Virus record (IMG/VR): IMGVR_UViG_3300005264_000076
Location: 1 to 41,597 of that record
Direction: 5' to 3' (one strand)
Source: a virus
DNA: 41,597 bases
In this document: one piece after another, positions 3,483-41,597 of the stretch
Numbering within the stretch: the first letter of the stretch is position 1
How the letters are laid out: every line of letters begins with the position of its first letter
Translations under genes and position numbers: made by a program
Notes under the pieces: generated by a model
Databases searched by the model: none
Seen by the model: the letters and a program-made list of their open reading frames with translations, nothing else
What the model was told of the DNA's origin: nothing

Positions 3483-6400
3483 TTACCTCAAGTTAAGTTC
3501 TGGATTGTGAACGAATACCCCGGCAGCAGTTATAGCTAATTGAACAATATCTTTTATTTCTGTCATTACTACATTTTCGTCATCAGTTGCAAGATCAAAA
3601 GCCTCACCATCATTTGTTGTCACATCAATAACATCGTTGATTCTTACCAGCCCAGTTGTTGAGGCTAATTGAATCTCTTTTTTATCTTCATCAACTGAAA
3701 TTTGATTAGGCACACATTCAAAGGTGGACTTAGAATGTATAACTTTTCTGTCCATTTCGTAAATGTACTTAACTTGATCGGCTGTAATAATTCCCCTACT
3801 TACTTTGACCATTGCCAATCCTTGTGGTGATGCATCAAGTACCCCGGATCCAAGTGTCATAACAGTATCAGTAATATCAGAATTTGAATCAGTATGCGTA
3901 TGTACAAGCACTCCATCGATATAATATTTAATGTCTGTTGGTGTTTTCGCAATGAGGAAATGGAACCATTTACCCTCTGGAATAATACCAGCCTTTGAAG
4001 TTACCAACCCACCAGCGTTAACTTTTAATGTACCGTTATTTGCTGCAATATAAAGTCCATTTGCAGGCTGATCAGTTGATTGCCCACCATTATCAATAAG
4101 CATTAACATTTGATCATCACTGGTATTTGTAACTTTAGCGAATCCATAAGCGATAGTATTTGCACCAGCAGCTCCAATTGTTGCATAACAATAAGCTGTA
4201 TCACTGAATGAAGTCATATATGCAATATCAGAATTTGGGAAAAATTCTCTAGTTACAGTTCCAACATAATTAAATGTCAAGAAATTTGGTGATTTATCGG
4301 TGGATGAAATTGCAGATAATATCAAATCCCATCGCTGTTTTGAGCTGGCACTTGAATTATAAAATTGTACTGTTAACGTATCGGTAGCCGCAATAAACTC
4401 ATGCGACACCCTTTTTCCTACGGGTGTATAGTGGCTCGGACTATTCCAAGATGCAGCACCAGTTAGTTTCATACAACTACCATTGGCTCCTGAATCACCG
4501 GTCGAGCTTGTCTCCATCAGGCTAAACTTATATTTAAGACCTGTAGTAACAGAAAACGACCTTGTAACCGTACTTGTGCCAGTACCGCTCTGTGTGATTC
4601 TATAGAATGGATCTACCCAAACACAATTAACATTTGACGTTTGACCACCCACAACCCAATCATCAACTACAGATCCACCACCTGTAATTACCGGAATTAA
4701 ATCCGGGCCAGCCTGAGTGTTACCATCTGTATCATCATTTCCACAAATTGCAGCTACAAGATTATCTCCAAATCTAACACCTGTATTAAAATATTTTGTA
4801 ATTTCAGTAAGCATTTCCTTATCTACTGCCATATCAGATATTTCATGAACAACGCTTAACCCATCTTCTGCTGGAATATATAATTTATCATCTAGCCCAA
4901 TAATATTTGTGTTAGGTGTCAAAATATAACCCATATCCGTATCGGAATTATCAAAATATCCAGTTCTCCATGCTGCTACTGAGCTATCGGAAATTGGTAA
5001 TGCACCAAAACTAATCTCAGTACCGTTACGAATTGCGAGAACATCACCAATCAATGTTGCTGCCTCGGCTGCTCCTATAACATCATGTGCTGTACCATCA
5101 TCTTTTAGTACAGTTGTAGCGGATCCGTTTGGAACCAGTATTGTAGGAATCTTACGACCAAAAGCATCCGTTGGAGCCCCACTTAATGCTTTCACAAATA
5201 AGTTGTTACAATATCCGTTTGCCAAAACCTGAGTAGTATTTAACGTTATCCAACCGGTACCATTAAAATCACTGATATTGCCACCAGCGACTTGATACGC
5301 TGTTTCTGTCCATCTATAAACCTTGTCTGCAATGAAATCAAACTTGTATAAATCTAAGTTCGCACCAGCTGCATATAAAGCACCATCGAGAAATACCATG
5401 TGTTCAAAGATAATTGTATTAACTTCAAGCTCCATTGAAGGGTTCCACTGAACATTGTCTTGATGTTGTAAGTCATAAATCTCAATATAAGTTCTAGTAC
5501 TAGCAGTATTAGCCACAATCGCTGCATCTTTTGGAAATTTACCACAAGTATTATACCAAGAGGTATCTTTCTTCTCTCTCCAATCAACTGTATCTAGTGC
5601 TGATAATGCCAAACATGCTGTTGTTACTGTAGATGATGTAGAAATATCACCTTCAATAGCGTCAACTGTACCAGTAATGGATCCAGCAGCAGCAGTTATT
5701 GCAGCGTCAACCTCTGCTTGTGTGTAATATACAGTATTATGATCGTGACTTGTATCAGATTTATCAGCCAATAGAGCGATAATTTCAGCCTCAGTATAGT
5801 ATCTGGAATCGTGAGTATGTCCACCTTCTTCATTTGCCATATAAGCATCAGCTGATCTAAGTCCTGCCATGTGAGAATGATCAACTATTACAACATGCCC
5901 CCACTCAATAGTAACTCTTGATTCACCGTTCCAATCCATATAGTAATTATCAAAACCGAATTGAAATACATAATCACTATTTAAATCGATATGAACACTA
6001 CCTGCTGCATATTTAGAAATTGCTGCACCGTAAGTATCGCCATTAAATTGTGTTGGTGATAAAACAGCAGCACCATCTTTAAGAACCCCAACCCTATATT
6101 GCCATCCGTTATCAGAATCCTCATCTAGTGCCGACCCAAACATAGCTATTTGAGTAATTTCTAACGCACGATTTTCACCCCTACGGATCAATTCGATATA
6201 TTTATTTAAGTTAAATTTGAAATTTACCAAACCACCAGCATCGGCATCACCGGGAATATTTGCGTGCCACCCACCAGATCCATCAGTGTTTTTCACAAGA
6301 TAAGTTGAGGGAACACTCGTATCAATATCGTAACACGTTGTGTTTGAAATTACAGCTCGATCCCATGAATTACCCTGTATTTGAACTCCATAAACACCTT

Positions 6401-11985: not shown

Positions 11986-12063
11986 TCCACTTTCCTTTCG
12001 GGTAGCTTTCGCTAGTATTCCCTGTTGATTTTACCCAGAGCAATTAAGCTGTATTCTAGGCAT

Positions 12064-12096
12064 AAAAAAAGGGCAAACAGAATTAACTGCTTGCCC
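12064..12096 (-). terminator. Rho-independent terminator or attenuator before scaffold gene
   Basis: The stem is GGGCAA-x-CAG paired with CTG-x-TTGCCC (12071-12096). On the minus strand it is followed directly by seven T. It lies about 80 bases upstream of the scaffold start and downstream of a candidate minus-strand promoter, so it may act as an attenuator in the leader of the scaffold-capsid transcript as well as stopping portal-operon transcripts. Confidence 0.75.
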
Positions 12097-12130
12097 TATG
12101 GTTGTTCCATTCGGATTACCTATTAAAATT

Positions 12131-12157
12131 ATTATCACAAATTATTTGAAAAGTCAA
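12131..12157 (-). promoter_or_regulatory. Candidate promoter for scaffold-capsid genes
   Basis: On the minus strand, TTGACT (12157-12152) is separated by 15 bases from GATAAT (12136-12131), which carries an extended -10 TG one base upstream. The spacer is short for sigma70, but the extended -10 could compensate. It sits between stem-loops in the portal-scaffold gap, where a separate promoter for the strongly expressed capsid genes would be useful. Confidence 0.45.
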
Positions 12158-12163
12158 AATTGT

Positions 12164-12200
12164 GGTGCTTGAAACGTAAAACCCAAAACGATCAAGCACC
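12164..12200 (-). other. Stem-loop in portal-scaffold gap
   Basis: Perfect 9-base arms GGTGCTTGA and TCAAGCACC surround a 19-base loop. No long T run follows on either strand. It is the middle of three hairpins in the 316-base gap between portal and scaffold. Function unknown; possibilities are a protein-binding site or mRNA structure. Confidence 0.5.
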
Positions 12201-12234
12201 TGTGAACTAGGCAACACATCAAAACCTATTTCAC

Positions 12235-12287
12235 AAAAATAATGTAATAACAGCTGGGAACACGAAAAAATCCAGTGCTATTACATT
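12235..12287 (-). terminator. Hairpin terminator after portal gene
   Basis: Arms AATGTAATA...CAGCTGG and CCAGTGCTATTACATT (12241-12257 and 12272-12287) pair over about 15 positions with small mismatches. On the minus strand ATTTTTG follows. It begins 15 bases after the portal stop codon, fitting a terminator for the terminase-portal transcript, though the T run is short. Confidence 0.55.
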
Positions 12288-12301
12288 ACTATTCTATCAC
12301 A

Positions 12302-18656: not shown

Positions 18657-18896
18657 ATGAAAACTACAGCAATTATTGTTATCGGATGCCTTGCGATCAC
18701 TTCCAGCGTGCTAATGCTGGAGGGGATCAATAACACTTATCAACCGGAAAAATTGGAGCTGGTAAAATCTGAATATCACTACTTATTAGACTTAGTAAAA
18801 GCAGACGCAGACTATCACGATAGCGAAGGCGACACGATCAAAGCAGATGAAATTTATAAAATCCACCGGAAAATAAAAAAGGAGTTAACAAAATGA
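18657..18896 (+). CDS. Small single-pass membrane protein
   Basis: This is a 79-residue protein starting at the ATG at 18657, two bases after the previous stop; a longer in-frame start at 18600 lies inside the upstream gene and is less likely. Residues 4-22 (TAIIVIGCLAITSSVLMLE) form a membrane anchor or signal; the rest is soluble, charged and helical, ending KIKKELTK. It overlaps the next gene by four bases. Role unknown. Confidence 0.6.
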   Translation: MKTTAIIVIGCLAITSSVLMLEGINNTYQPEKLELVKSEYHYLLDLVKADADYHDSEGDTIKADEIYKIHRKIKKELTK

Positions 18897-19231
18897 AAAA
18901 ATACACACGATCAGATTATAATCACATCTCAATCACTGGATCGCTCACAGATCAGTCGCAAAAACATATAGGAAATGTTGAAGAAAACGGCAGAACTAAA
19001 ACCTCATTTATTATCAGAGTAGAACGACCGCAGGAGCTAAAATCAGCTCAACCATATTATGACTATATTAATTGTGTGGCATGGGCTGGGCTGGCTGATT
19101 TTATATTCGACCAACGCAGGGGATCAATAGTAAAAGTAGACGGAATGTTAACGCTACATAGCCACCTAATTGATGGTGAAAAAAAATGGATCACCGAAAT
19201 CGTAGCGGATAATATCGAGCTGATCAGATGA
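18893..19231 (+). CDS. SSB-like OB-fold protein 1
   Basis: This 112-residue protein shows a single-stranded-DNA-binding-protein layout: SITGSLT near the N-terminus, TSFIIRVERP, YINCVAWAGLADFIFD (about 59-74), then IVKVDGMLTLHS and KKWITEIVADNIELIR. This is the bacterial SSB OB fold without the long C-terminal tail. It probably coats ssDNA during replication or recombination. It starts inside the previous stop (ATGA). A second OB-fold gene follows two genes later. Confidence 0.7.
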   Translation: MKKYTRSDYNHISITGSLTDQSQKHIGNVEENGRTKTSFIIRVERPQELKSAQPYYDYINCVAWAGLADFIFDQRRGSIVKVDGMLTLHSHLIDGEKKWITEIVADNIELIR

Positions 19232-23949: not shown

Positions 23950-24096
23950 ATGTTAAATTACATAAAAATCAAAAAAAAGAATAAATTGAACAAAAAACGT
24001 ATTAGAAATTTTATAAAAAACAAACCTATTAATTTACTAATTATGGGTGGATCTTTACGAAAGGTGAAACATGACTTTATCAGCCGACCAAATTAG
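23950..24096 (+). CDS. Possible small basic peptide
   Basis: This is a 48-codon frame beginning MLNYIKIKKKNKLNKK, very rich in Lys, Asn and Ile. GGGGA lies about 11 bases upstream of the ATG, but it overlaps the terminator tail, and the frame ends 26 bases into the next gene. AT-rich composition could create this frame by chance. A weak TTGAAC...TTATAA promoter-like pair (23986-24016) lies inside it, which would fit a leader rather than a gene. Confidence 0.25.
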   Translation: MLNYIKIKKKNKLNKKRIRNFIKNKPINLLIMGGSLRKVKHDFISRPN

Positions 24097-24406
24097 ACAT
24101 TTTTTTGCAATCATAGGTACTAAACAAGGTAGGCGGATATTCCGTATTATCTCTACTGAAAAGAGTGGTGCTTATATGAGCGAGATCCAAAATAGATCTA
24201 AGTTCAAAACTTGGAAAACTAATTTTTGGGTACAAAAATTAGTGGAAACTGGAATTGTTAAAAAAACAAAAATCACCGAAGATAATGGATTCACTCCGTT
24301 AGTTTACAATATTAATTTAGAAAATTTACAAATAATCAAAGACCATTGGAGAGACAACTATGCAAATATCAATCGACAAGTTAAACCATCACTTAAAATT
24401 CGCTAA
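24071..24406 (+). CDS. Winged-helix DNA-binding protein
   Basis: This 111-residue protein shows a winged helix-turn-helix pattern: GRRIFRIISTEKSGAYMSEI, then a recognition-helix-like NFWVQKLVETGIVKKTKIT and a beta wing (TPLVYNINLENLQ). MarR- and ArsR-type regulators share this plan. Position after a terminator at the start of the helicase block makes it a candidate regulator of the shared operator sites. The RBS is CGAAAGGTG. Target sites are not shown by the sequence. Confidence 0.6.
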   Translation: MTLSADQIRHFFAIIGTKQGRRIFRIISTEKSGAYMSEIQNRSKFKTWKTNFWVQKLVETGIVKKTKITEDNGFTPLVYNINLENLQIIKDHWRDNYANINRQVKPSLKIR

Positions 24407-24507: not shown

Positions 24508-26232
<1,725 letters not shown>

Positions 26233-26240
26233 TAAAAAAT

Positions 26241-26506
26241 AGTAGATTACATAAATCGATCAATCAACATGGTGCTTCGGCCGCTGACCATCGAACAAAT
26301 TTGCTCTTTTTGCAATCTAGCAAAAAAATAAAATCGAGTAGATTGTAAAAAAGGCAAATTATAACCATGGGTCGGGGCTTGGTATACCATGTGGATGGAC
26401 GAAAAAGGTGGGTAGATTGTAAAAAAGTGAAAAAATGACTTAGCTCTACTAGGTTTTCATAAATGTTTGTGGATACACCTTTATTGGTCAAAAATGTAAT
26501 CTACTG
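26241..26506. repeat. Iteron-like cluster, candidate replication origin
   Basis: The 371-base gap between the helicase and primase-helicase genes has no supported gene. It contains five copies of a 14-base element with core TAGATT: plus strand at 26242, 26338 and 26412, minus strand at 26307-26320 and 26491-26504. Two are GTAGATTGTAAAAA exactly, and the outer two form perfect 12-base inverted repeats (AGTAGATTACAT). Two small GC-rich patches and palindromes CCATGG and GGTATACC lie between. Iterons beside the replication initiator gene are typical of origins, so an origin is inferred. Confidence 0.6.
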
Positions 26507-26538
26507 ATAAATAAGTTGCTAAAAGTATAATTTTAGGA

Positions 26539-26567
26539 TTGACGCTGGTATTTTTAATCAGTAAACT
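26539..26567 (+). promoter_or_regulatory. Promoter before primase-helicase gene
   Basis: TTGACG (26539-26544), a 17-base spacer and TAAACT (26562-26567) resemble a sigma70 promoter (five and four of six matches). The gene starts 37 bases after the -10 box with AAGGAG as RBS. It lies just to the right of the iterons. Confidence 0.6.
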
Positions 26568-26603
26568 TAAATAATATCAAAGGTATTTTAAGGAGAAAAA
26601 CAC

Positions 26604-29555
26604 ATGGATTTGAAGGATCAGATAGTCGATAGTTTAACACCAAATTTTATAGAAAATTTATACTCAGAAGTGAGCAAAAAAAAGCGAGGAATTAATGGTG
26701 AATTTATGGGCTCTTGTCCATCATCAAATCATGAAGATAAATCAGCATCATTTTCATTCAATGTTAACAAAAAAGGTGTGTATAAATGTCATGTTTGTGG
26801 AGATTCAGTTTCAGGTGATATTTTTAATTATGTTCAGGAGTTTAAGGGGTGTGATTCTTTTGAAGATGCTTTAAGTTTTTTGGCTGATAAATTATCTATT
26901 AATAAAGATGATGAAAAAAAAGCTAAAACAAAAAGTAAAAAAGATGAAAAAGAAGAGTGGGAGCCGGAAAAAGAAGATCGTGCAATTCCAGTACAAACTA
27001 TTATGGCTGCTGTTGCTATATTAAGAAGTGAAGAGAATTCTGAGGCATTTAAAGCATTAATTGATATAGGAATTACTGAGGAAATTATCACTAAATATTT
27101 TATTGGATATAAAAATGGTAGATATTGGTTCCCAGTAAAAAATAATAAAGGTGAATTTGTTAACGTCAGACGATATATGATGGATGCTAAATCTAAAAGG
27201 GTTCCAAAAATGATGTCGTATCCAGTTGATGCTGATGGTTATGGTTATGGTGAATCAAGAATGTTTCCTTTAAGGTCGTTAAAATCTGATGAAGTTTATA
27301 TTTTTGAAGGTGAAAAGGATATGTTTATTGCATTATCTAAAGGACTTAATGCAATTACAAGTGGTGGGGTTACTAGTTGGAAAAAAGATTGGGGAGCATT
27401 ATTCCTTAACAAAAGTGTTGTTATTTGTATGGATGCTGATAAAGAGGGTATTGAAGGTGCTAAAAAAAGAGTGGCTGATATATTCCCATTTTGCAAACAG
27501 CTGAAAGTTATTAATCTTCCTTTTGAGAATATAACTAAGGACTGTAATGATTTTGCTGATTACTTAGAATTATATAGTTTTTCTGATTTTGTTAAGTTAG
27601 TAGCTGAAACACCAGTATATAAAGAAGTTACTACCGAAGATGTTACCGAATACAAGGTTAATATAAATGAGGCATCTAAACCTGTTTACGCTAACAAACG
27701 ATGTTTTTCTAAGGGTACGATCGTTACAGCTAAAGACGATACTATGTGGACTGTTCCAGCTGAATTAGAATTGTCTTGCGACTTCAACGATCACCGCACT
27801 CCAGGATGTAAGACTTGTATATTAAAAGATTTAGGCTCATTACCATTACAAAAAAGGATAGAAAAAACGGATCCTCTTTTATTAGAATTATTCAAAGTAA
27901 GCTCAACTGTTAAAACTGGTAGTTTAAAGAGACACTTTGGTGTAAAAGCGAAATGTGGAGCCTTTAAGACTAAACTAATATCAGCGTATAAGGTTGAATC
28001 ACTTGAATTACAGGTGGATCTCTCATACAACAAAACAAGTGTTGAACCTCAATGTAAAAATTATGGATATTATGTTTGGGAAAATAAGTTTGATAGAATG
28101 TTCCCGAATAAAACCTATAATATAAAATCATTATCTACAGCGGATCCAAAAACACAAAACTCAGTTCATCAAATTTATTTAGCAGAATTAGCCGAAACAA
28201 ATATCGATACCTTTAAGGTAACTAAAGAAACAGCTGAAAATTTGAAAAGATTCCAACCGAAAGAAGGTCAATCTATAGAGGATAAAATTGGTGATATATA
28301 TGATGAGTTTTCTAATCGTGCTGGACTTTATGGTAGGCAGGATATGTTTTTACTTATGGATCTAGTATTTCATTCAGCATTAAGTTTTAGTTTTCAGAAT
28401 AAAATTTTGAGAAAAGGTTGGGTTGAGGCTGCAATTGTAGGTGATTCAGGTACAGCCAAGTCAGCAATGGCAAACTTTTTATGTGATACCTATAGGGTTG
28501 GTGATTTTGTTGGTGGTGAAAATTTATCTTTTGCCGGACTAGTTGGTGGATTAACTCAGATGGGAACCAACTGGAATATCCATTGGGGTAGAATACCGCT
28601 TAATGATAGACGAATGTGTGTGATTGATGAAACGTCAGGTATGTTAGTTGAACAGATCGCAAGATTATCAGAAATTAGATCTAGCGGTATTGCTAAGATT
28701 GAAAAAATAAAAACTGAACAAACAATGGCTAGGACTAGGTTGCTATGGCTATCTAACCCAAGGAAAAAGGGTTTTGGTGTTACCACCTTCGATAAGGGTG
28801 TGAAAGCTATACCGGATGTTTTTGGACAGCCAGAAGATGTAAGAAGATTAGATTTAGCATTGTGTGTGGCTAGTGAAGAGGTATCAGCTACGATGGCTAA
28901 TTCTTCACCAAAAGCTGTTGATGATTATTATGGTGAAATGAATCACGATCTAGTTATGTTTATTTGGTCCAGAACACCTGAGCAAATTATTGTACCGGAT
29001 GATGTGCAAAGTCATATCCGTAAATGGGTTATTAGTATTGATGGTATTTATTCCGATACAATCCCATTAATTGAAACATCAGTATTTAGAGAAAAACTAG
29101 TAAGAATGTCTGTAGCACTTGCTGGTAGATTATTCTCAGTTGATTTTAAGGGTAGAATTATCGTTAAAAAAGAGCATGTTGATTATATTATGAAATATTT
29201 GAAACGCATCTATTCAAACGAACGGTTTCAATATGAGCAATATTCAAGAGAAAAATTGAGAGCCCATAACCTACTGAACACAGATCGTATTTGTGAAATT
29301 TTCGACCTTGATGATGAGTTTGTTATTGCGGATCTATCAAGAGGTACGATTAATAAAGGTGCAATTGATGAATGTTTTCGTGATGGTGTATTGAGTTTAA
29401 CTACCAAAGCAAAGGTTATAAATGAGCTAAGAAGGTTAAATGCAATCGATGATAGGACTAATTATTATATTATTCAGCCGGGATTTAGAGCTTTTTTGAA
29501 CAAAAAACTTAAAAAAATTCAAGATAATGGTGGTATTGGAGATATGCCAGTATGA
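26604..29555 (+). CDS. Primase-helicase: CHC2 zinc finger, TOPRIM, MCM-like AAA+
   Basis: This is a 983-residue fusion. Residues 30-90 form a CHC2 zinc finger (Cys38, His43, Cys62, Cys65). TOPRIM primase motifs follow: IFEGEKD (about 232) and CMDADKEG (about 274). A Cys-containing middle region (CDFNDHRTPGCKTC, about 393-406) leads to an AAA+ core with Walker A GDSGTAKS (about 613), Walker B CVIDETSG (about 672), sensor-1 LLWLSNPR (about 713) and VRRLDLAL (about 746). The AAA+ motifs parallel MCM (GDPGTAKS, CIDE, SRFDL). It would make primers and unwind DNA at the adjoining origin. The start overlaps nothing; the end overlaps the next gene by four bases. Confidence 0.8.
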   Translation: MDLKDQIVDSLTPNFIENLYSEVSKKKRGINGEFMGSCPSSNHEDKSASFSFNVNKKGVYKCHVCGDSVSGDIFNYVQEFKGCDSFEDALSFLADKLSINKDDEKKAKTKSKKDEKEEWEPEKEDRAIPVQTIMAAVAILRSEENSEAFKALIDIGITEEIITKYFIGYKNGRYWFPVKNNKGEFVNVRRYMMDAKSKRVPKMMSYPVDADGYGYGESRMFPLRSLKSDEVYIFEGEKDMFIALSKGLNAITSGGVTSWKKDWGALFLNKSVVICMDADKEGIEGAKKRVADIFPFCKQLKVINLPFENITKDCNDFADYLELYSFSDFVKLVAETPVYKEVTTEDVTEYKVNINEASKPVYANKRCFSKGTIVTAKDDTMWTVPAELELSCDFNDHRTPGCKTCILKDLGSLPLQKRIEKTDPLLLELFKVSSTVKTGSLKRHFGVKAKCGAFKTKLISAYKVESLELQVDLSYNKTSVEPQCKNYGYYVWENKFDRMFPNKTYNIKSLSTADPKTQNSVHQIYLAELAETNIDTFKVTKETAENLKRFQPKEGQSIEDKIGDIYDEFSNRAGLYGRQDMFLLMDLVFHSALSFSFQNKILRKGWVEAAIVGDSGTAKSAMANFLCDTYRVGDFVGGENLSFAGLVGGLTQMGTNWNIHWGRIPLNDRRMCVIDETSGMLVEQIARLSEIRSSGIAKIEKIKTEQTMARTRLLWLSNPRKKGFGVTTFDKGVKAIPDVFGQPEDVRRLDLALCVASEEVSATMANSSPKAVDDYYGEMNHDLVMFIWSRTPEQIIVPDDVQSHIRKWVISIDGIYSDTIPLIETSVFREKLVRMSVALAGRLFSVDFKGRIIVKKEHVDYIMKYLKRIYSNERFQYEQYSREKLRAHNLLNTDRICEIFDLDDEFVIADLSRGTINKGAIDECFRDGVLSLTTKAKVINELRRLNAIDDRTNYYIIQPGFRAFLNKKLKKIQDNGGIGDMPV

Positions 29556-29809
29556 ACCAAGAATTATTTAATCTTTTAGGGAAAGATACAACACAAGAAT
29601 TATTATGGGTTATTGGCACAAAACCAAACCAATCGGCAAAAGAGATAGCTAAAATAGTTGTTACTGATCCACAAAGTGCCAGCAGTAAGTTGGTTAAAAT
29701 GACCAAGCATAATCTTGTGACTAGAGATAAATCAACTGGTGTTTATAGATATAAACTATGTGATCCGTTTATTAGTAGCTTAACGGAAGTGGGTAACTTA
29801 CATGCTTGA
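29552..29809 (+). CDS. Small winged-helix protein
   Basis: This 85-residue protein reads as a winged helix: ELLWVIGTKPNQSAKEIAKI, PQSASSKLVKMTKHNLVTRD and a wing KSTGVYRYKLCD. It overlaps the primase-helicase stop (ATGA) and the next gene by eight bases, so it is co-expressed with replication proteins. It may be a regulator or an origin-binding accessory; the sequence does not settle which. Confidence 0.6.
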   Translation: MNQELFNLLGKDTTQELLWVIGTKPNQSAKEIAKIVVTDPQSASSKLVKMTKHNLVTRDKSTGVYRYKLCDPFISSLTEVGNLHA

Positions 29810-30170
29810 TAAATTTAAGCATTATGAAAAGCTAAGATTTATTGAATGTGAACAAAAACTTTTCAAGTTAAAACTTTGGCTAAGAGATGAAAAAACAGCT
29901 GATCATTACCAACGTATCGAGGCTATTTATCGAGTGTATTTATTAAAAAAAAGACTTAAAAGAATATGTAGGTATGGTGCAAAATCGCCTGAAACAACAT
30001 ATATGGTGGCACTTAAATTGGTTGAAAAACTTGAGCAGTACGCAAAAAAATTGAGAGGGGTAGATTGTATGACGAAATTAAATGAAGTTGATCAGGTAGT
30101 GTTTCAAAGTCTCGACGAAACTTTGGCGAAATTAAGACAAGTGAAGGAGGTGTTTAAGAGTGGCAAATAG
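29802..30170 (+). CDS. Hypothetical helical protein with internal start signal
   Basis: This is a 122-residue, basic and helical protein with no recognised family. Near residue 89 there is an internal in-frame ATG at 30069 preceded by GAGAGGGG, which would give a 33-residue C-terminal product (MTKLNEVDQVVFQSL...). The same stretch holds GTAGATTGTA, identical to the core of the iteron elements. Overlaps its neighbours on both sides. Confidence 0.55.
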   Translation: MLDKFKHYEKLRFIECEQKLFKLKLWLRDEKTADHYQRIEAIYRVYLLKKRLKRICRYGAKSPETTYMVALKLVEKLEQYAKKLRGVDCMTKLNEVDQVVFQSLDETLAKLRQVKEVFKSGK

Positions 30171-40946: not shown

Positions 40947-41597
40947 TTATTTATAATTTCTGTCAACCAGCTGTTTTACTGGTAAACTTGTACTTGTAGT
41001 ACCACAAGCATAGTTGTAAATATACCTAGTTATATAACCAGGCTTTATAACTCCAATATCAATATTATGAGCACCTGCGTACTCATAAAGAAACGTAGTG
41101 CCAACCGTTTGGTCGACGCTATCTAAAACGGTGTCCGTACCTGCTGCAAGGATTACAACATCTGTACCTGCGACCAAATCAGTTATCGTAAGACCTAGTG
41201 TTGGTGCAATGATATTAACATCCGCACCTGCCGATATAAACTTACCAACTAAATGAGTACCGCCACCAGCTATAATTATATTAACCGTTCCTGTAGTTGC
41301 TGAAATATAAACATCCTTACCTGCACTATCGCCGTTATTGTTAGTAAAAATAACATGGTCTAAAGTAATGTCTCCAACTCCATTAATTCGCATACCATAC
41401 CCTGTACAATTCTTAATCGCTGTATCTGAAATTGTAGGATTATCTGCTATATCTAAAATAACACCATAATCTTCAACCGCCCCATTAACTGTGCAATTAT
41501 CCATACCACTTCCGTTATCTAAAGTAACAGCCCTGCTGTTTACAAAAGAGATATTCTCATAAACTTCACCGCTATTTAAGTTACATTCACTACCAAC
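40947..41597 (-). CDS. Beta-helix tail protein, N-terminus cut by window edge
   Basis: The reading frame is open from the right edge to 40947. The ATG at 41504 is internal: the 31 codons before it read VGSECNLNSGEVYENISFVN and continue the same repeat pattern. The sequence has short parallel beta-helix rungs (GVILDIADNPTISDTAIKNC, TGYGMRINGVGDITLDHVIF), then ATTGTVNIIIAGG and a C-terminal domain ending VKQLVDRNYK. Pectate-lyase-like beta helices are the fold of many spikes. The 5' end of the gene and any catalytic part lie outside the window. Confidence 0.75.
   Translation of the reverse strand, partial: VGSECNLNSGEVYENISFVNSRAVTLDNGSGMDNCTVNGAVEDYGVILDIADNPTISDTAIKNCTGYGMRINGVGDITLDHVIFTNNNGDSAGKDVYISATTGTVNIIIAGGGTHLVGKFISAGADVNIIAPTLGLTITDLVAGTDVVILAAGTDTVLDSVDQTVGTTFLYEYAGAHNIDIGVIKPGYITRYIYNYACGTTSTSLPVKQLVDRNYK

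Follow-up and report, generated by a model that had tools for sequence, protein, structure and literature searches.

A candidate replication origin of repeated elements in a nested dyad beside a phage primase-MCM helicase gene

The non-coding gap between the SNF2 helicase and primase-helicase genes of the viral genome IMGVR_UViG_3300005264_000076 is best explained as a probable replication origin of the iteron-and-dyad type, to which either the MCM-primase itself or a neighbouring helix-turn-helix (HTH) protein would bind. On the sequence features described here, we place the probability of this reading at roughly 0.55. The IMG/VR record was analysed in full, and its 41,597 bases are referred to as the window. 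A replication origin had been proposed for the gap in a first-pass annotation, and the proposal has gained support from the adjacent gene, whose product fuses DnaG and MCM parts and probably ends in a winged helix, from a strong dyad next to an AT-rich flank, and from the iterons or dyads that distant relatives carry in the corresponding gap. It gained none from GC skew, and the origin remains a candidate. Also counted against it are the absence of the elements from the relatives that were fetched, the 20 of 30 matching gaps that lack a dyad, a bias of the fold towards the plus strand and marginal k-mer counts.

The gap, its repeated elements and the nested dyad

The late genes of the window, among them those for a P22-like portal, a major head protein and a terminase, run leftward. 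The early genes occupy 17.7 to 31.8 kb in the rightward orientation; among them are those for a single-strand DNA-binding protein, an exonuclease, a DUF669-like protein (phrog_862, whose Youna2 counterpart carries the DUF669 annotation), the SNF2 helicase (24508-26232) and the primase-helicase. The leftward late operon leaves the record at both ends (1-362 and 40947-41597), and the genes found there could be a single gene split by linearisation; however, no terminal repeat is present and the reading frames do not connect. A strongly foldable gap was also found among the late genes, at 11986-12301 between a late gene and the portal gene (z -4.8 and -5.8), and carries a terminator-like hairpin and additional hairpins.

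At 371 nt, the gap considered here is the largest inside the early operon. Gaps of 184 and 120 nt are also present, and its earlier description as the only large gap in the operon is fair; its position directly before the primase-helicase gene, which starts at 26604, was given correctly. The features of the gap and of the relevant genes are listed in Table 1.

Table 1. Features of the candidate origin and of associated genes in the window
Feature	Position	Strand	Basis or remark
Single-strand DNA-binding protein, replication operon	18893-19231	+	Pfam SSB 6.8e-9
Winged-helix-like early protein, 5' of SNF2 gene; weak alternative candidate binder of elements	24071-24406	+	Sub-threshold HTH match, E 0.015
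Candidate replication origin, non-coding gap between SNF2 helicase and primase-helicase genes	26233-26603		ORF table, gap table
Nested dyad/foldable element: 12-bp outer stem, long hairpin 26263-26396, second arm 26398-26489	26241-26505	+	RNA fold, pair probabilities
Element 1, AGTAGATTACAT	26241-26252	+	Pairs with element 5
147-nt imperfect dyad, centre ~26329	26256-26402		Self-reverse-complement alignment; 6/300 shuffles
Element 2, CTAGATTGCAAAAAG	26306-26320	-	Pairs with element 3
Element 3, AGTAGATTGTAAAAAA	26337-26352	+	Pairs with element 2
Element 4, GGTAGATTGTAAAAAA	26411-26426	+	Direct copy of element 3, weakly paired
AT-rich flank, candidate DNA-unwinding element	26480-26599		76.7% AT versus genome 63.1%
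Element 5, AGTAGATTACAT	26494-26505	-	Pairs with element 1
Promoter-like site TTGACG-17-TAAACT, just 5' of primase-helicase ribosome-binding site	26539-26567	+	Consensus scan, 9/12, near chance rate
Primase-helicase: CHC2 zinc finger, Toprim, MCM N-terminal and AAA+, probable C-terminal winged helix	26604-29555	+	Pfam, PDB sequence matches, predicted model, fold match
MarR-family HTH protein directly 3' of primase-helicase; alternative candidate binder of elements	29552-29809	+	Pfam MarR E 1.8e-6

When the gap was searched blindly for a motif of width 14 with five sites on both strands, exactly the five elements in Table 1 were returned, with the consensus AGTAGATTGCAAAA and a score that was reached in 1 of 120 shuffles; the score of a four-site version was reached in none of 120. 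All five of the TAGATT-based 14-base copies noticed earlier were thus recovered without prior knowledge of them, and the outer pair, elements 1 and 5, are indeed perfect 12-nt inverted repeats. Word counts are weak. The five occurrences of TAGATT in the gap are marginal, with some 6-mer equalling that count in 6 of 150 shuffles, and across the genome GTAGATTRYA with up to one mismatch occurs about as often as expected (15 sites versus 14.3). The signal therefore lies in the local clustering of extended copies. Elsewhere in the genome, none of the elements was found except for a 10-base core, GTAGATTGTA, of which a single exact copy lies at 30060-30069 within an early gene.

The label "iteron cluster" used in the first-pass annotation overlooks that four of the five elements are the paired arms of one larger structure, 26241-26505. 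Elements 1 and 5 form its outermost stem, which consists of 12 perfect pairs around 241 nt with pair probabilities near 1, and elements 2 and 3 form the apical stem, at the tip of a long hairpin within the outer one. Further complementary sequence, outside the elements themselves, lies between them and makes 26256-26402 an imperfect dyad of 147 nt. Folded as RNA, 26241-26505 gave z scores of -8.0 on the plus strand and -5.9 on the minus strand (0/100 shuffles for each), and these were the lowest on both strands among 189 windows sampled over the genome. The whole gap folded as single-stranded DNA gave a z score of -4.5 (0/100 shuffles).

Several clustered copies beyond chance, as found here, are one mark of an iteron-type origin. 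Another is an adjacent AT-rich region where unwinding could begin, and the flank at 26480-26599 is a candidate for this, its AT content being equalled or exceeded in 0.9% of 120-nt windows. GC skew had been suggested as a check, and neither per gene nor at four-fold sites does it switch at the gap; the four-fold values on the two sides are alike (0.236 and 0.232). Matches to the DnaA box in the gap are one-mismatch sites only, and such sites are common elsewhere too (141 in the genome).

The primase-helicase and candidate binding proteins

The product of the gene downstream of the gap has 983 residues and, according to Pfam, begins with a DnaG-type zinc finger (CHC2) followed by Toprim_2. Residues 345-885 match a complete MCM, with both its N-terminal and AAA+ domains (Pfam MCM 1.8e-8), and all matches to PDB structures in a sequence search were MCM proteins. 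The predicted model, with a mean pLDDT of 88, agrees with this assignment, superposing over 348-882 on the archaeal MCM 6mii (VIA; Z 30.9, rmsd 5.0, 456 residues). The best PHROG of the protein, which covers the helicase half, is labelled "unknown function". The last ~100 residues are variable among relatives. They are modelled with the winged-helix order of elements (pLDDT 80), and their best Foldseek matches, all weak at E 0.06 or worse, are to winged-helix DNA-binding proteins; the C-terminal domain is read here as a probable winged helix. The lack of strong Foldseek matches was not taken to indicate a new fold.

The presence of other potential DNA-binding proteins in the operon raises an unlikely alternative, namely that the elements are an array of operators for a phage transcription factor, either the MarR-like or the winged-helix-like protein in Table 1, that controls a primase-helicase promoter. 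Operators are usually inverted sites, the MarR-family gene lies directly 3' of the primase-helicase gene, and the promoter-like site is downstream of all five elements. However, the elements span 265 nt, with most of them far upstream of that site, and the match of the site to the promoter consensus is near the chance rate. An operator array would also leave the long dyad between the elements, and the AT-rich flank, unexplained.

If the gap is a replication origin, a sequence-specific initiator would bind the 14-base sites, which comprise two inverted pairs nested in a long dyad and one direct copy. The initiator would most likely be the winged-helix tail of the DnaG-MCM fusion encoded immediately downstream, with possible assistance from one of the operon's small HTH proteins. 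The DNA could be bent or opened as the initiator assembles on the inverted sites; the AT-rich flank would melt, the MCM ring would be loaded, and the Toprim primase joined to it would make the first primers.

Archaea and eukaryotes replicate their DNA with MCM as the helicase, which normally depends on separate loaders. We advance only tentatively, as rather improbable, the stronger proposal that the one-chain primase-MCM uses the winged helix at its own tail to recognise the iteron dyad and needs no ORC/Cdc6-type loader to be loaded as a pair of MCM rings that face each other. Were this true, the gap and its counterparts in relatives would be one-protein MCM origins. A phage MCM fused to a bacterial-type primase, together with a compact candidate origin, could make it possible to reconstitute a minimal MCM origin in vitro and in a laboratory bacterium, and the cultured Microbacterium and Bacillus relatives allow the origin idea to be tested. 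A literature search of open papers found no origin for the DnaG-MCM phage group.

Comparison with known replication systems

The alpha protein of satellite phage P4 combines a Toprim-type primase, a hexameric superfamily 3 helicase and a C-terminal winged helix that recognises the iterons of the origin (ori1) in one protein, and P4 replication also requires the distant crr site. The window protein likewise has an N-terminal Toprim primase, preceded by the CHC2 zinc finger, but its helicase is an MCM rather than a member of superfamily 3. The candidate counterpart of the alpha winged helix is the domain modelled above with the same order of elements, with the pLDDT and weak fold matches given there. 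No second cluster of elements that could correspond to crr was found in the window.

The self-loading helicases SaPI Rep and SCCmec Cch2 have iterons in a neighbouring intergenic origin, which are thought or have been shown to be bound through the C-terminal domain (PMC7581432). Together with the lambda origin, these helicases of staphylococcal islands are the nearest precedents that have been tested. As in the window, a mobile-element AAA+ replication helicase gene thus lies beside intergenic short repeats. The arrangement differs in that their origin is downstream of the helicase gene, whereas the candidate gap is upstream, and their helicases are of the DUF927 or D5 type whereas the helicase here is a complete MCM in one chain with a DnaG-type primase.

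The lambda origin has inverted-repeat iterons beside an AT-rich stretch within the replication gene region (PMC5043065). Inverted repeats and an AT-rich stretch are also joined in the gap, again in a replication gene region. The lambda iterons are inside gene O and are bound by a separate initiator that recruits the host DnaB. The candidate origin, by contrast, lies in non-coding DNA, and its helicase is encoded by the phage.

Bacteriophage-encoded MCM helicases are known (McGeoch and Bell 2005 and Samuels 2009, as cited in PMC5862659). What they have in common with the window protein is a phage MCM-family helicase that occurs together with a primase, either as a fusion or as a separate partner. 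The mobile-element MCMs of PMC5862659 are paired with archaeo-eukaryotic primases, whereas that of the window is joined to a DnaG-type primase.

Matching gaps in relatives

Among phage records, relatives at ~30% identity were found in Youna2, BSP7-type Bacillus phages, Krampusvirus-type Microbacterium phages and Wollypog. A scan of viral contigs yielded 246 matches, 80 of which were kept; the nearest relative among these, L028, has 42% identity overall, rising to 51% in the helicase domain. Scans for close relatives that used the whole primase-helicase or the terminase as a single protein returned none, and a scan of 84,980 genomes returned one distant match. No plain DNA similarity to 24508-29809 was detected in phage records, and a two-element DNA pattern had no match in 2.9 million viral contigs. 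The elements of the window are absent from every relative fetched, all of them at 42% identity or less, L028 included. Searching relatives for the elements had been put forward as a check on the origin, with loss of the elements under a kept gene order as the refuting result. The outcome is mixed: the letters were not recovered, but L028 has a different dyad in its matching gap.

Dyads of 135-225 nt are present in the gaps before the HTH-primase gene in BSP7, L011 and L028, and one of ~300 nt in the matching gap of Youna2. Other relatives have repeats at this place. The gaps of L008 (Sparcetus) and L013 contain nine copies each of CCACAATC and CACACAAT, respectively (0/100 shuffles for both); these are CACAAT-type repeats on both strands, and they converge. 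In L034, a GCAGAAATTTGC repeat occurs together with a dyad. When gaps within 1.3 kb upstream of the primase-helicase family gene (n=30) were compared with other gaps (n=99), a significant long dyad was found in 10 of the 30 and in 4 of the 99 (p 6e-5). The boundaries of eight upstream gaps had been set by hand, and with these removed the figures are 5/22 versus 4/99 (p 0.01). With one coding and two terminator-like cases removed instead, they are 7/30 versus 4/99 (p 0.003). As the remaining 20 of the 30 upstream gaps have no significant long dyad, the pattern is common and not universal.

The Sparcetus gap could be aligned with that of Pharpay, and all but one of the seven CACAAT copies are unchanged between the two (36/42 bases). 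Outside the repeats the two are 47% identical, and between the copies 42 of 97 bases agree. This suggests that repeats 5' of the primase-helicase family gene are selected as sequence, as protein-binding sites are, with the footprint coming from Krampusvirus-type phages that have another repeat and applying to them rather than to the window's own elements. The architecture is partly conserved among relatives, while the letters of the elements are not.

The relatives also bear on a more doubtful alternative than the operator array, in which the plus-strand transcript of 26241-26505 folds into a closed branched RNA. Such a molecule could be a non-coding RNA, could belong to an RNA-primed origin, or could serve the processing or attenuation of the operon mRNA. 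RNA-based prophage origins exist as a precedent (PMC7157519). The plus-strand bias of the fold keeps this explanation alive: the z score is lower on that strand, and the structure there has 10 G-U pairs versus one C-A mismatch (sign test p 0.012, a value biased by the choice of the structure by energy). Yet both strands fold exceptionally well, which a DNA dyad would predict. No consistent strand preference was seen in the relatives, the structure has no match in Rfam, and a covariance model of it found nothing comparable in 38 relatives. Moreover, a single sequence recurs in the two separate nested stems and again, almost unpaired, in the additional copy that is element 4, which favours sites for a protein over a pure RNA fold. 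Least credible, and very improbable, is a remnant or small mobile element with the perfect 12-nt outer repeats as the ends of a short MITE-like insertion, since although the end sequence is also copied internally, no target-site duplication is visible in the flanks, no second copy occurs in the genome and no similar DNA was found in phage records.

Some candidates from the relatives were set aside. The L103 dyad is a coding artefact, and those of L035 (4988-5153) and L057 (4759-4858), where nested CCCCTCCCG hairpins are accompanied by T-runs 5' of the primase gene, look like bidirectional terminators. An ACAATC core common to the window and actinophages was rejected, as it ranks under acidic-codon repeats in an unbiased test; there are only two exact copies in the window (p 0.035). 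In relatives such as L068, L088 and L012, the gene 5' of the primase gene often has a long run of Asp/Glu codons, which resembles the acidic tails of single-strand DNA-binding proteins. Convergent CACAAT repeats before the primase gene were seen in the Krampusvirus-type phages L008 (5600-5760), L109, L110 and L111, where they are conserved while the sequence around them has diverged. The strongest dyad among all loci is in L079, where a nearly perfect 150-nt hairpin (5397-5548) lies immediately 5' of the primase gene.
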